Assembly: GCA_024760905.1 (NCBI GenBank)
Contig: CM045733.1
Span: 33,330,001-33,394,000, forward strand
Source of the DNA: Plotosus lineatus
Lineage: Eukaryota; Chordata; Actinopteri; Siluriformes; Plotosidae
Reading direction: 5' to 3'
Length of the DNA stretch: 64,000 bases
Every line of letters begins with the position of its first letter. The first letter of the stretch is position 1. Below, in pieces: positions 1,293 through 48,099 of the stretch. The position numbers were made by a program, and so were the translations under genes. The notes below the pieces were generated by a model that made no database searches, was not told where the DNA came from, and saw nothing but the letters and a program-made list of their open reading frames with translations.

Positions 1293-29766
<28,474 letters not shown>

Positions 29767-35015: not shown

Positions 35016-35857
35016 TACAGACGCTCCCCGATTTACGTTTTTAATTGGTTTCGGACGGAGTTCAAAAGTTGAAAGTGAACGTAAGTTGTTACAGTGACGT
35101 ATGACGTATGGCGTGTGACCTTTGACGCTCATACTGTACTATACATCCATAAATACCATTTACTGTATCTCATAAAACACCCCTAAATCAATTATTATAA
35201 ACATAACATTGTAAAATAATATCAAATATATAAAATAATATCAACATCAATTTCAAATAAGTCACTTATTTATACCGAGGCACTTTACTTGAAGCTTAAA
35301 ACAGCCAATTAACACTTACAATATGTGAAGCGCTCCATACCGAAAGTAGTGTACTTGCGAAAGTAGTGTACTTGCTGTGGGTTATACAGACTTCCGGTCT
35401 TTCAAGTGCGCAAGGGTGCCGTTGAACTCGTTTAGAACACAGCCTGCACTGATGTGAATCCCGGCAAAGCGGAGAGTTCTTTCCTTTGTGTAAGTAAGTA
35501 TACTTTATTCAAGAGATGCATACAAAGAACAAGTACAAATCCTAATGAATATTAATAGAAAAATAAGTATACACTCTTAGGATTCTGCTAAAAGATAATA
35601 AATATCTGTAATTGTTCTGTAATTTGTGCATTCGGTTTTCATTCATATTACAACTTTGCTTAACTGAGTATGCATGGTAGATTGTGCAGATCTGAGCAGA
35701 TACTTAATTCATCTCCGTTTATGAGACTTGAACCCATGATAGTAGGCTTATACTTCTGACCAACCAGATTTGCTTAGGGTTACAAAAGTCCGCAAAACAG
35801 TGTAAACACAAAGATCACAGAGACGACGTCTTAACACAAGGGGAACATGCTATATAA

Positions 35858-35915
<58 letters not shown>

Positions 35916-36020
35916 ATTTTCTGAGTAGATCCTTCCGTAGGAGAGTGCTCAATACTTTTTGGTAGAGCAAATAACAAAAATAAAAGGACAGGACAAAGAC
36001 TTTCTATTGAAACTCCATTT

Positions 36021-36075
36021 ATCACTACAGATCTGTTTCGAGGGGTGGTGAAACCATCCTCTCTCTTCAGGTGAT
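36021..36075 (-). ncRNA. Hammerhead ribozyme motif, minus-strand copy
   Basis: This is the exact reverse complement of the plus-strand motif at 36107-36161, so it carries the same conserved core, stems and GTA cleavage triplet when read on the minus strand. The two motifs are arranged so that a transcript across the whole palindrome would form one long hairpin, competing with either ribozyme fold. Confidence 0.75.
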
Positions 36076-36106
36076 TATAGAAGAATCTCTATAATCAAAT
36101 TCTATA

Positions 36107-36161
36107 ATCACCTGAAGAGAGAGGATGGTTTCACCACCCCTCGAAACAGATCTGTAGTGAT
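36107..36161 (+). ncRNA. Hammerhead ribozyme motif, plus-strand copy
   Basis: Stem I is ATCAC (36107-36111) with GTGAT (36157-36161). Core box 1 is CTGAAGA (36112-36118), fitting CUGANGA. Stem II is formed by 36119-36142, with GAG, GG and TGGT pairing to ACCA, CC and CTC around a TTC loop, one mismatch and one bulged A. Core box 2 is GAAA (36143-36146). Stem III is the minimal ACA/TGT with loop GATC (36146-36155). The cleavage triplet GTA ends at 36156. Short stem III and an open stem I are features of type I hammerheads found in Penelope-like retroelements and retrozymes. Activity is untested. Confidence 0.78.
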
Positions 36162-36206
36162 AAATGGAGTTTCAATAGAAAGTCTTTGTCCTGTTCTTTT
36201 ATTTTT

Positions 36207-36260
<54 letters not shown>

Positions 36261-36417
36261 TGTCTGTAGTTTGTAAACAATGAATGCAGCGTCATTACGT
36301 CAGCGTACTACGTATGTACGTCTAAACTCAAAATTTGACTTTTTTTTTTTTTTTTTTTTTTAAATGTAAAATCGAAAAAACGTAAAACTGATGAACGTAA
36401 GTCGGGGAGCGTCTGTA

Positions 36418-40617: not shown

Positions 40618-42691
40618 AAGTCTTCTTCTTCTTTTCCTTTCGGCTGTTCCCTTCAGGGGTCGCCACAGCAAATGATCTGCCTCCATCTCTCCCTATCCTC
40701 TGCATCTTCTACTCTTACTCCAACGACCTTCATGTCCGCCTTCACCGCATCCATAAATCTTCTCTTTGGTCTTCCTCTGGGCCTTTTGCCTGGTAGTTCC
40801 AACCTCAGCATCCTACGACCAATATACTCACTATCCCTCCTCTGTACATGTCCAAACCATCTCAATCTAGCCTCTCTGACTTTGTCTCCAAAACATCTAA
40901 CATGTGCTGTCCCTCTGATGTACTCATTTCTGATCCTATCCATCCTCGTTACTCCCAAAGAGAACCTCAACATTTTCATCTCTGCTACCTCCAGTTCTGC
41001 CTCCTGTCTTTTCCCCAGGGCCACTGTCTCTAAACCATACAACATCGCTGGCCTCATCACCGTCTTGTACACTTTTCCCTTCATTCTTGCCGATACTCTC
41101 CTATCACACATCACACCGGACACTTTTCTCCATCCATTCCAACCTGCCCGCACACGCTTCTTCACCTCTTTTCCACACTCTCCATTGCTCTGGATTGTTG
41201 AGCCTAAGTACTTAAAATCCTCCACCTTCTTTATCTCTGCCCCCTGTAACCTCAAAGTTCCTCTTGGGTCCTTGTCGTTTACACACATGTATTCTGTCTT
41301 ACTAAGACTAACCTTCAATCCCCTCCTTTCCAGGGCATACCTCCACCTCTCTAGATTTTCCTCCACTTGGTCTCTGCTCTCACTACAGATCACTATGTCA
41401 TGTGCAAACATCATAGTCCATGGAGATTCTTGTCTAACCTCATCTGTTAGCCTGTCCATCACCACAGCAAACAAGAAGGGGCTGAGAGCTGACCCTTGAT
41501 GCAGTCCCACCTCCACCTTGAACTCTTCTGTCACACCGACAGCACACCTCACCACTGTCTTCCATCTCTCATACATGTCCTGCACCACTCTAACATACTT
41601 CTCTGTCACTCCAGACTTCCTCATACAATACCACAGTTCTTCTCTCTGCACCCTGTCATATGCTTTCTCCAGATCCACAAAGGCACAATGCAGCTCCTTC
41701 TGACCTTCTCTGTACTTCTCTATTAACATCCTCAAAGCAAACACTGCATCTGTGGTGCTCTTTCTTGGCATGAAACCAAACTGTTGTTCACAAATGCTGA
41801 CCTCTGCCCTTAGTCTTGCTTCCACTGTTCTTTCCCATAGCTTCATTGTATGGCTCATCAACTTTATCCCTCTGTAGTTGCCACAACTCTGTACATCTCC
41901 CTTGTTCTTTAAAATGGGCACAAGCACACTTCTCCTCCATTCCTCTGGCATCTGCTCACTTTCTAAGACCTTGTTGAATATTCTTGTCAGAAAATCTACT
42001 GCTACCTCCCCTAGACACTTCCATACCTCAACTGGTATGTCATCAGGGCCAACTGCCTTTCCACTCTTCATCCTCTTCAATGCCCTCCTCACTTCTCCCT
42101 TACTAATCTTTGCTACACCCTGCGCCTCAAAGGTCACCTCTTCTATTCTTTTTTCTCTCTCATTTTCCTCATTCATCAGCTCTTCAAAGTACTCTTTCCA
42201 TCTTCCCAGCACACTTCTGTCATCAGTCAATACATTTCCCTCTCTGTCCTTTATCACTCTAACTTGCTGCACGTCTTTCCCATCTCTATTTCTCTGCTGT
42301 GCTAACCTGTATAGATCATTTTCTCCCTCCTTACTGTTCAACCTATCATACAAGTCATCATACGCCCTCTGTTTGGCCTTTGACACTGCTACCTTCGCCT
42401 TACGCTGTGTCTCCCTGTACTCCTGTTTACTCTCTTCGGTCCTCTCAATGTCCCACTTCTTCTTGGCTAACCTCTTCTTTTGTACACACTCCTGCACTTC
42501 CTCATTCCACCACCAAGTTTCCTTATCTACTTTCCTTCCAGAGGACACACCAAGTACTCTCCTACCGGTCTCCCTGATCACATTGGCTGTGGTTGTCCAG
42601 TCCTCTGGAAGCACTTCCTGACCACCCAAAGCCTGTTTCAACTCCTCCTTGAAGACAACACAACACTCTTCCTTTTTCAGCTTCCAAGTCT
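40618..42691 (-). mobile_element. RTE-type LINE, longest copy in the window
   Basis: The 3' end (cctgaagggaacagccgaaa and (AAG)n on the minus strand) lies at the left, and the 5' truncation near 42691 at the right. The words caagtct occur at both junctions (near 40617 and 42685) and may be a short duplication or microhomology. The APE endonuclease is lost; the RT and C-terminal region are kept in one open frame. Confidence 0.92.
40653..42641 (-). pseudogene. RTE reverse transcriptase ORF, N-truncated, catalytic Asp lost
   Basis: Non-LTR reverse transcriptase that would copy the element's RNA at a nicked target. The 662-codon frame has no internal stop. Its first codon here is TTG and the frame stays open 5' to a TAG near the truncation point, so there is no real start. 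Visible motifs are [62 protein letters not shown], then FAHDIVIC where the family has FADD: the first catalytic Asp is His (codon 41400-41402 on the + strand, residue 414). The C-terminal part has FSLGVTRMDRIRNEYIRG and ARLRWFGHVQRRD. An RT lacking this Asp should be inactive. Confidence 0.92.
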
Positions 42692-45430: not shown

Positions 45431-45752
45431 GGCTTGGCAGTGGTGGCCTGGTGGTAAAGGGCGCTGGATCGCTGATCCTAAGGTTGGGGGTTCGAGTCCC
45501 ACTCTCCACAAGGTTGTCACTGGATTATTAAAGGCTGGCCATGTCTCTCATCGTCTATGGTGAAAGGTTAAGGGGAAGAAAAAAAAAAAACATTGCTGAC
45601 TTTCGTAAAGAGTAGCTGCATAGCCGTCAGCATGTTTCGTGTCTGCCCCTTGCTAAAGGTTTGTGTCAGGAAGGGCATCCGACGAAAAAACCTATGCCAG
45701 ATCAAACCTGCAAATCAGATGATTTTCTGTGGTGACTACTGAAAGGAAAAGA
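45431..45752 (+). mobile_element. SINE family A with RTE-like tail (type 1)
   Basis: Intact tRNA-like head (ggcagtggtggcctggtgg; box B gggttcgagtccc), shortened body with an inserted A-run, then the type 1 tail: aggaagggcatccgacg, 'aacctgcaaatcagatgatt' and a degenerate gtggtgactactgaaaggaa. It lies 55 bp upstream of an RTE copy in the same orientation. Confidence 0.88.
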
Positions 45753-45806
45753 TCATCCCCATGGAGGCTGACCCAAGACGTTGTTTATCCAAGTAAAAAA
45801 AAAATC

Positions 45807-46578
45807 AGACATTGTGATCTGTCGTGAGAGCAGAGAACAAGTGCAGGAAAATCTAGAGAGGTGGAGGTATGCCCTGGAAAGGAGAGGAATGAAGGTTAGC
45901 CCCAGTAAAACAGAATACATGTGTATGAATGACAAGGACCCAAGAGGAACGGTGAGGTTACAGGGAGCAGAGATAAAGAAGGTGGAGGATTTTAAGTACT
46001 TGGGTTCAACAATCCAGAGCAATGGAGAGTGTGGAAAAGAGGTGAAGACGCGTGTGCAGGCAGGTTGGAATGGTTGGAGAAAAGTGTCCGGAGTGATGTG
46101 TGATAGGAGAGTATCAGCAAGAATGAAAGGAAAAGTGTACGAGACGGTGTTGAGGCCAGTGATGTTGTATGGTTTAGAAACAGTGGCCCTGGGGAAAAGA
46201 CAGGAAGCAGAGTTGGAGGTAGCGGAGATGAAAATGTTGAGGTTCTCTTTGGGAGTAACGAGGATGGATAGGATCAGGAATGAGTACATCAGAGGGACAG
46301 CACATGTTAGAGGTTTTGGAGACAAAGTCAGAGAGGCTAGATTGAGATGGTTTGGACATGTACAGAGGAGGGATAGTGAGTATATTGGTAGTAGGATGCT
46401 GAGGTTGGAACTACCAGGCAGAAGGCCCAGAGGAAGACCAAAGAGAAGATTCATGGATGTGGTGAAGGAGGACATGAAGGTAGTTGGTGTAAGAGAAGAA
46501 GATGCAGAGGATATGGTGAGATGGAGGCGGATGGTTCGCTGGAGCGACCCCTGAAGGGAACAGCCGAAAGGAAAAGAA
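45807..46578 (+). mobile_element. RTE-type LINE, 5'-truncated, plus strand
   Basis: It starts just after the catalytic FADD (at DIVICRESREQVQENLERW) and runs uninterrupted to WSDP-stop: ALERRGMKVSPSKTEYMC, VEDFKYLGSTIQSNGECGKE, VMLYGLETVALGKRQEAELE, ARLRWFGHVQRRDSEYIGSR. The 3' end is cgacccctgaagggaacagc. It is open over about 250 codons despite truncation, which suggests a young insertion. Confidence 0.92.
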
Positions 46579-47087: not shown

Positions 47088-47770
47088 ACGATGGCCAAAA
47101 GTATATTGACACATCCATTTATGGATTGACATGAGGTTGTTTTCCCTTAGCTGTTATAACATTCTCCACTTTCTGGGAAGGTTTTTCAGTTGGGCACTGA
47201 GGTCTGGAAAGAAGGCCTGGCATGAAGGTGGTGTTCCGAATGATCCCAAAGATGTTCAGTGAGGTTAAGGATAAAGTTCTTCCTTACCAATTTTGGTAAA
47301 TCATGTCTCCATGGAGCGGGCAGTGGTGGTCTAGTGGTATAGGGCGCTGGATCGCTGATCCAATGGTTGGGGGTTCGAGTCCCACTCTCCACAAGGTTGT
47401 CATTGCCACCCCACCCCCCCACCCAGTGCAGCTAACTGGGTTATCAAAGATCAAAGGCCGGCCATGTCTCTTACTGTCTGTGATGTGAAGCATGCAAAAG
47501 AACTATTGCTGACTTTCGACAAGAGTAGGCTGCAAAGCCGTCACCGTGTTTCTACCCTGCGATGGCCTGGCGAGCTGCCCATGGTGTACTCTGCCCTCGC
47601 CTGGAGTTGGCTGGGATGGGTGCCAGCCTCCCCACGACCCTAATTAGGGTGAAGCGGTTACAGAAAATGAATGAATGTCTTCATGGATTTCACTTTTTCA
47701 TGCTGGAACATGACTGGTCTGGGCCTCTTATCTCTATTATTGTAAAATCAAATTTTATCATTGACAAAGA
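47088..47770 (-). mobile_element. Tc1-like transposon remnant, host of a SINE
   Basis: The left part reads atggccaaaagtatattgac, 'agctgttataacattctcca' and 'gatcccaaagatgttcagtg', text I know from a Tc1-like family with ccaaaagtatt ends. After the SINE it resumes with tcatgctggaacatgactgg. No coding frame remains. Confidence 0.7.
47316..47674 (+). mobile_element. SINE family A, full-length reference copy
   Basis: Box A-like tggtctagtgg at 47327-47337 and box B ggttcgagtcc at 47372-47382 have tRNA-like spacing. They are followed by a C-rich stretch, the full body, and the type 2 tail ending in (aatg)n. Duplications atgtctccatgga (47303-47315) and atgtcttcatgga (47675-47687) differ at one base. 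It is inserted in a Tc1-like remnant. Confidence 0.93.
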
Positions 47771-47816
47771 GATTCTACACAATTGGTTGTCCGGTTTGTG
47801 GCAGGTAGCATTAGTG

Positions 47817-48091
47817 CAGGGGTGTCAAACTCGTGCCAGAAAGGGCCATGTGGCTGCAGGTTTTTGTTTCAACCAAGCAGCAGCACACCTGACTTTGATC
47901 ATTGAATCAACTGAGTTGAGTGTTCAGGCAGTTGATTGGTCAGTCTCTGTACAGAGCACACAGATTGACCAATCAGCGGCCTGAAGACTCAGATGAGTTG
48001 ATTAAATGAGCAAAGTCAGGTGTGCTGCTGCTTGGTTGAAACAAAAACCTGCAGCCACATGGCCCTTTCTGGCACGAGTTTGACACCCCTG
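47817..48091. mobile_element. Palindromic hAT-type MITE
   Basis: It starts caggggtgtcaaactcgtgc and ends with its inverse. The arms pair over more than 100 bp each. The 8-bp flanks cattagtg (47809-47816) and cattggtg (48092-48099) differ by one base, as expected for a hAT duplication. There is no coding capacity. Confidence 0.92.
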
Positions 48092-48099
48092 CATTGGTG

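Follow-up and report, generated by a model that had tools for sequence, protein, structure and literature searches.

Work by Cervera and de la Pena in 2014 and by Lunse in 2017 reportedly deals with the pLTRs of Penelope-like elements. Penelope hammerheads, inverted repeats as sources of RNAi, and surveys of Penelope elements are treated in general terms in PMC6431247, PMC1431729, and PMC6515669, respectively. In rotifers, inverted Penelope pLTRs are mostly arranged head to head, with junction palindromes that the authors ascribe to self-priming, and the 3′ end of one pLTR of such a pair may carry an optional 31-bp tail (PMC3846280). That paper also describes a preference for simple AT-rich targets, the existence of solo pLTRs, and some copies without a TSD.

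In Poseidon of the anole, the ORF begins at hammerhead stem II, the cut is located 26 bp downstream, a main site of RT initiation is found 111-118 bp inside the ORF, and the tail of 30-40 bp corresponds to the stretch between two RT starts (PMC11167929). In this study, the Poseidon ribozyme cleaved only in the presence of the element’s protein, hammerhead mutants had no effect on in vitro insertion, and no reads ended at the cut site. A role of the hammerhead in transposition is therefore not established, as the anole mutants insert normally in vitro and no reads mark the cut. Penelope hammerheads are described as minimal and often devoid of a stem III loop (PMC7761336), and hammerheads with a weak stem III, from both amphibians and Penelope, are reported to cut better as dimers (PMC7229834, PMC7761336, PMC6466107).

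The window analyzed here, by which we mean the whole 64-kb stretch of DNA, harbors a palindrome at 35973-36209 in which each strand carries a sequence fitting the type I hammerhead (Table 1). The palindrome is probably a solo head-to-head Penelope-like pLTR pair, predicted to have been self-primed at an AT-rich microsatellite, and this inverted pair is likely nested in a TA-flanked terminal-inverted-repeat (TIR) element. Among the titles and abstracts listed by literature searches, none deals with such a pair in fish or within a TIR transposon, which is not to claim that it is unpublished.

Table 1. Coordinates of the palindrome, its two hammerheads, and the surrounding features in the 64-kb window
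Feature	Position	Strand	Remarks
Carrier element	35018..36415		1,398 bp; TIRs beginning CAGACGCTCCCCGA; TA at both outer sides
(TA)n left of the palindrome insert	35861..35892		followed by (GA)n
Extension on left arm only	35917..35972	-	56 nt; candidate Penelope “tail”, outer limit provisional
Left palindrome arm	35973..36082	- (ribozyme sense strand)	110 nt; 99% complementary to right arm
Left hammerhead, mirror image	36021..36075	-	- strand cut predicted after 36026
Junction hairpin	36072..36110		TGATTATAGA 36072-36081 opposite TCTATAATCA 36088-36097 and 36101-36110
Spacer	36083..36099		17 nt
Right palindrome arm	36100..36209	+ (ribozyme sense strand)	110 nt; complementary to left arm
Right hammerhead	36107..36161	+	core and stem descriptor, fold; cut predicted
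Right hammerhead, stem I	36107-36111 / 36157-36161	+	ATCAC / GTGAT
Right hammerhead, core segments	36112-36118; 36143-36146	+	CTGAAGA; GAAA
Right hammerhead, stem II	36119-36142	+	
ATG within stem II	36125..36127; mirror 36057-36055	+; mirror -	32 nt upstream of predicted cut
Right hammerhead, stem III	36146-36155	+	ACAGATCTGT; own reverse complement, perfect 10-nt palindrome
Right hammerhead, predicted cut	after A36156	+	
(TA)n directly adjoining right arm	36210..36253		

An inverted-repeat comparison recovered the two 110-bp arms with one mismatch and a 17-nt spacer, as claimed in an earlier note on this DNA. The sole mismatch is at 36195, where the right arm has T and the mirrored left copy has C. 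No further copy of the arm occurs within the window. (TA)n is present on either side of the palindrome, immediately so on the right, and the left arm runs 56 nt further outward before reaching (GA)n(TA)n. In the sequence of the locus, no TSD was recognized around the insert. The junction hairpin between the arms has a 6-nt loop, and of its two repeat units TCTATAATCA is present twice and TGATTATAGA once.

Both arms contain, on opposite strands and head to head, a complete type I hammerhead (HHR) core with 13 of 13 positions, two of them degenerate. The acceptance rule for the core was taken from PMC3088659, and C3 U4 G5 A6 N7 G8 A9 G12 A13 A14 A15 U16 H17 are found in each arm. Three helices, open at stem I, surround the core, and 5, 3, and 3 of their pairs adjoin it without a gap; stem III consists of 3 pairs with a GATC loop, and the predicted fold has an internal loop after the 5 pairs of stem I as well as bulges in stem II. 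The pattern CTGANGA..CGAAA..GTA matched three times in the window (36112-36156 (+), 36070-36026 (-), and 54950-54905 (-)) versus 0.14 expected. The third match was rejected, as it failed the stem test. With the full descriptor (exact core and at least 4, 3, and 2 pairs in stems I, II, and III, respectively), the two arms are the sole matches in the window. Matches expected by chance were counted in a first-order Markov chain with the dinucleotide frequencies of the window. A first run of this null gave 376 matches in 4.48 Gb; for 16.48 Gb, there were 1,358 matches (0.082 per Mb per strand), which corresponds to about 0.0105 per 64-kb window with both strands counted, for a descriptor that was defined after the sequence was seen. 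A fully palindromic stem III of at least 10 nt together with a stem I of at least 5 pairs occurred in three null matches in the 16.48 Gb.

The Rfam scan of the whole window returned no hammerhead at gathering level, and with a 401-base query, Hammerhead_1 was absent from the 40 matches at E<=10. A 91-base query placed Hammerhead_1 in register at 36106-36161 with an E value of 7.8 over 4,227 families, or about 0.002 for a single family by simple division. The score of 10.7 bits misses the RF00163 gathering score of 34, and since the type I model nevertheless aligns in register, the arms appear to be an outlying member of the family. The earlier note had named the lack of a significant covariance score as a refutation of its reading, which applies in part, with a score far below gathering. 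Many Rfam microRNA models also match the hairpin, with every listed one scoring below gathering; these matches were discounted because any near-perfect hairpin should give them, and a microRNA precursor was rejected. Judged from its sequence, the hammerhead-type motif is in all likelihood genuine, an outlying member whose activity is only predicted.

The hammerhead-constrained fold of the monomer lies 2.8 kcal/mol above the minimum free energy (MFE), compared with a median of 15.9 kcal/mol above the MFE for the null matches. For three of the 1,358 null matches, the gap between hammerhead fold and MFE is 2.8 kcal/mol or less, and likewise three have a hammerhead fold as stable as -16.5 kcal/mol; an artificial positive control folded as expected in this test. 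In the MFE structure of the monomer, the core CUG pairs with the stem III CAG in place of the hammerhead, which is the MFE in the dimer and not in the monomer. Monomer folds are modestly better than those of shuffled sequences (z -1.74, -0.71, and -2.21). Pattern, descriptor, and fold comparison together support the claim that each arm fits the hammerhead consensus on its own strand.

When two arm RNAs are folded together with no constraint imposed, the predicted structure is a double hammerhead whose stem III has 10 bp, at -49.2 versus 2 x -19.3 kcal/mol. None of the 1,358 null matches, few of which have a palindromic stem III, gave an unconstrained double hammerhead in this comparison, which had no separate positive control. 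The two ribozymes are never on one RNA because each transcript comprises one ribozyme and its antisense, and a dimer would therefore need two transcripts of the same strand. The earlier proposal that the short stem III acts in dimers thus agrees with the co-fold of two molecules, but not with a dimer within a single transcript. The RNA of all 237 nt is predicted to fold at -197.2 kcal/mol (z -30.17), in line with the long double-stranded RNA (dsRNA) that had been anticipated on read-through, and in prefix folds the hairpin energy is gained steadily while the second arm emerges.

Hammerheads with related properties are known from several other systems. Metazoan retrozymes and amphibian satellite hammerheads are likewise type I, and their weak, palindromic stem III lends itself to dimers, but they occur in tandem repeats of 150-450 bp, whereas a single inverted pair is present here (PMC7229834). 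Avsunviroids and viroid-like RNAs also have a ribozyme on each strand and form double hammerheads via a short stem III; there, one RNA circle contains two distinct motifs (PMC6466107), whereas here one sequence is mirrored in a 99% DNA palindrome, and there is no evidence of an RNA replicon. The Aedes repeat hammerheads share a stem III that is fully self-complementary together with its loop and has 10 bp in the dimer, but differ in host, repeat, and inverted layout (PMC3088659).

The closest resemblance in layout is to Poseidon of Anolis (PMC11167929) and Pen2/Pen3 of Adineta vaga (PMC3846280), which show head-to-head copies with junction palindromes. According to the same sources, one copy of the Penelope pLTRs may bear a 3′ tail, targets are AT-rich, and a hammerhead lies near the stem-II ATG. 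In the window, an inverted head-to-head pair with a junction palindrome is found at 35973-36209, and (TA)n on both sides represents the simple AT-rich target. Downstream of the stem-II ATG, the predicted cut is at 32 nt and the arm ends are at 85 and 141 nt. The 56-nt one-sided extension, with its provisional outer limit, compares with 30-40 bp for the published tails. The locus differs from Penelope-like elements in this longer extension and in that no RT/GIY-YIG ORF was recognized here, and from Penelope hammerheads in having a stem III, which is perfectly palindromic, and a closed ATG frame. This frame stops after 10 codons, so that no Penelope protein is started in this copy. That no RT/GIY-YIG ORF was recognized in the 96 of 147 listed ORFs scanned bars the name Penelope element but not Penelope derivative, because such an ORF would be missing from a solo pair of pLTRs. 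The likeness is one of architecture, and by this comparison, descent of the pair from Penelope pLTRs is likely. Descent from Penelope had been put forward in the earlier note and holds at the level of architecture; its description as a tail pair does not, as the pair is head to head with the 5′ ends facing the spacer. The layout suggests that the pair is probably a broken leftover of a Penelope-like element rather than a new kind of device.

The TIRs of the carrier (35016-35039 and 36394-36417) are 24 nt long and 96% complementary, with the outer TA included at each end. TA-flanked TIRs as in a TA-target transposon are thus present, and the earlier claim that the pair is carried by a TIR DNA transposon at 35018-36415 is borne out by the TIRs and TA ends. 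The carrier is at most a non-autonomous element, as a Pfam scan of 96 of the 147 listed ORFs of 28-45 kb found no transposase domain. The palindrome was also considered as a TA-target element of its own and rejected, since by eye there is no TA or other duplication at its ends. The TIR sequence gave no match in viral_contigs, a collection without fish genomes. Within the TIR element, a tRNA-like stretch at 35694-35775 (-) with a B-box-like GGTTCAAGTCTC (by eye) is possibly an old SINE; it was called neither by Rfam at gathering level nor by ARAGORN.

Among the same 96 of 147 ORFs, Pfam recognized no Penelope-type RT or GIY-YIG endonuclease. The scan yielded a single family, RVT_1, in one ORF, which was taken to be the LINE-type ORF at 40653-42689 (-). 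This ORF is the longest in the window and encodes a reverse transcriptase of 678 aa without a stop. Its 120 best listed relatives are from fishes where named (among them Hemibagrus, Lucifuga, Pangasius, Channa, and Oryzias) and are up to 89% identical (Lucifuga); by its sequence, the window looks like teleost genome DNA. Copies of the LINE-type RT ORF, similar by eye, are found at 7638-8192 (-), 22625-23080 (-), 40653-42689 (-), and 45772-46554 (+). Three Rfam tRNA matches that reach or barely exceed the gathering score (5849-5921 (-), 45437-45510 (+), and 47320-47393 (+)), for which ARAGORN made no call, are probably tRNA-derived SINEs. The window further contains an inverted repeat at 3518-3748 / 5595-5825 (231 nt, 90% complementary, 1,846 nt apart) and a second palindrome at 47815-48093 (136-nt arms, 93%, 7-nt spacer). 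The latter has ends CAGGGGTGTCAAACTC and nearly matching 8-bp flanks, CATTAGTG/CATTGGTG (by eye), and presumably resembles a hAT-type MITE.

Two open frames extend over the left arm, one of 85 codons on the - strand (35834-36088, no ATG by eye) and one of 49 codons on the + strand (35925-36071). Residues 1-60 of the former yielded one candidate in a protein search, with nothing at E<=1; the latter likewise had no match at E<=1 among solved structures, and no Pfam match was attributed to either. A coding origin of the arm region was rejected, as these searches lent it no support, and the frames were treated as chance. Exact arm pieces had no matches in viral_contigs or genome_contigs, neither of which covers fish genomes, and in further collections without fish genomes the pair was unmatched in phages and the arm in plasmids. 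These zeros say little because none of the collections comprises fish genomes.

Instead of a Penelope pLTR, the arms might represent an inverted piece of a metazoan retrozyme or of another hammerhead-bearing repeat (short tandem non-LTR, type I), which we consider rather unlikely. Retrozyme hammerheads have a real stem III, and the amphibian ones, whose weak stem III ends in a palindromic tetraloop, cut better as dimers (PMC7229834), comparable to the 3 pairs and GATC loop of stem III seen here. However, the window contains neither a tandem copy nor any further copy of the arm, its 110-166 nt compare with repeats of 150-450 bp (PMC7229834), and an arrangement head to head with an extension on one side has been published for Penelope (PMC3846280). 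It is also improbable that the hammerhead is a coincidence in ordinary fold-back DNA, whether as a piece of the TIR element or as a small palindromic MITE, where the palindrome would make only dsRNA or a cruciform. Palindromic elements are not rare here, as seen from the one with 136-nt arms at 47815-48093, the Rfam score is weak, and the basic descriptor, with about 0.16 matches per Mb on both strands, implies many chance matches genome-wide. Chance is nonetheless a poor explanation because 0.0105 matches are expected per window, and far fewer for the palindrome alone, and because only 3 of the 1,358 null matches reach this fold quality.

A library or assembly chimera arising from a fold-back read, with one real hammerhead arm, appears very improbable. 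While a near-perfect short palindrome beside microsatellites is a place where such chimeras could arise, the arms differ at 36195, the outer flanks differ, and a single element, with TIRs that match and TA at its ends, encloses both arms. We give even less credence to a strand-symmetric ribozyme hairpin cassette, in which RNA started in the spacer would cut itself, read-through would yield a 110-bp dsRNA and small RNAs against all retroelements with this hammerhead, and a TIR transposon would have spread the cassette through the fish genome.

If the palindrome is a solo pLTR pair, a Penelope-like RT would have copied one pLTR, and the copied strand would have folded back on the TGATTATAGA/TCTATAATCA repeat to be extended into the mirror copy. 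At a (TA)n target, one of the two 3′ ends may then have been joined at the boundary of the pLTR, and the second a “tail” length beyond it. In its parent element, the ribozyme would be expected to cleave tandem transcripts, and to do so more efficiently as a double hammerhead via the 10-nt stem III or with the element’s protein. In the inverted copy, a read-through transcript from either side would contain the antisense arm first and the ribozyme arm second, and as the antisense arm is made first, the RNA should collapse into the -197 kcal/mol hairpin and cut poorly. The ribozyme fold would be open only to RNA started in or near the spacer.

Should the pLTR reading hold true, the locus would be a compact record of the proposed self-priming of Penelope, in which the two 3′ ends are preserved, at 85 and 141 nt downstream of the stem-II ATG. 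The hammerhead would in addition be a vertebrate one of Penelope type whose stem III can form pairs in a dimer, which would bear on the need for a partner RNA or protein. The inverted pair is a simple test case of how inversion may turn a ribozyme into a source of dsRNA.
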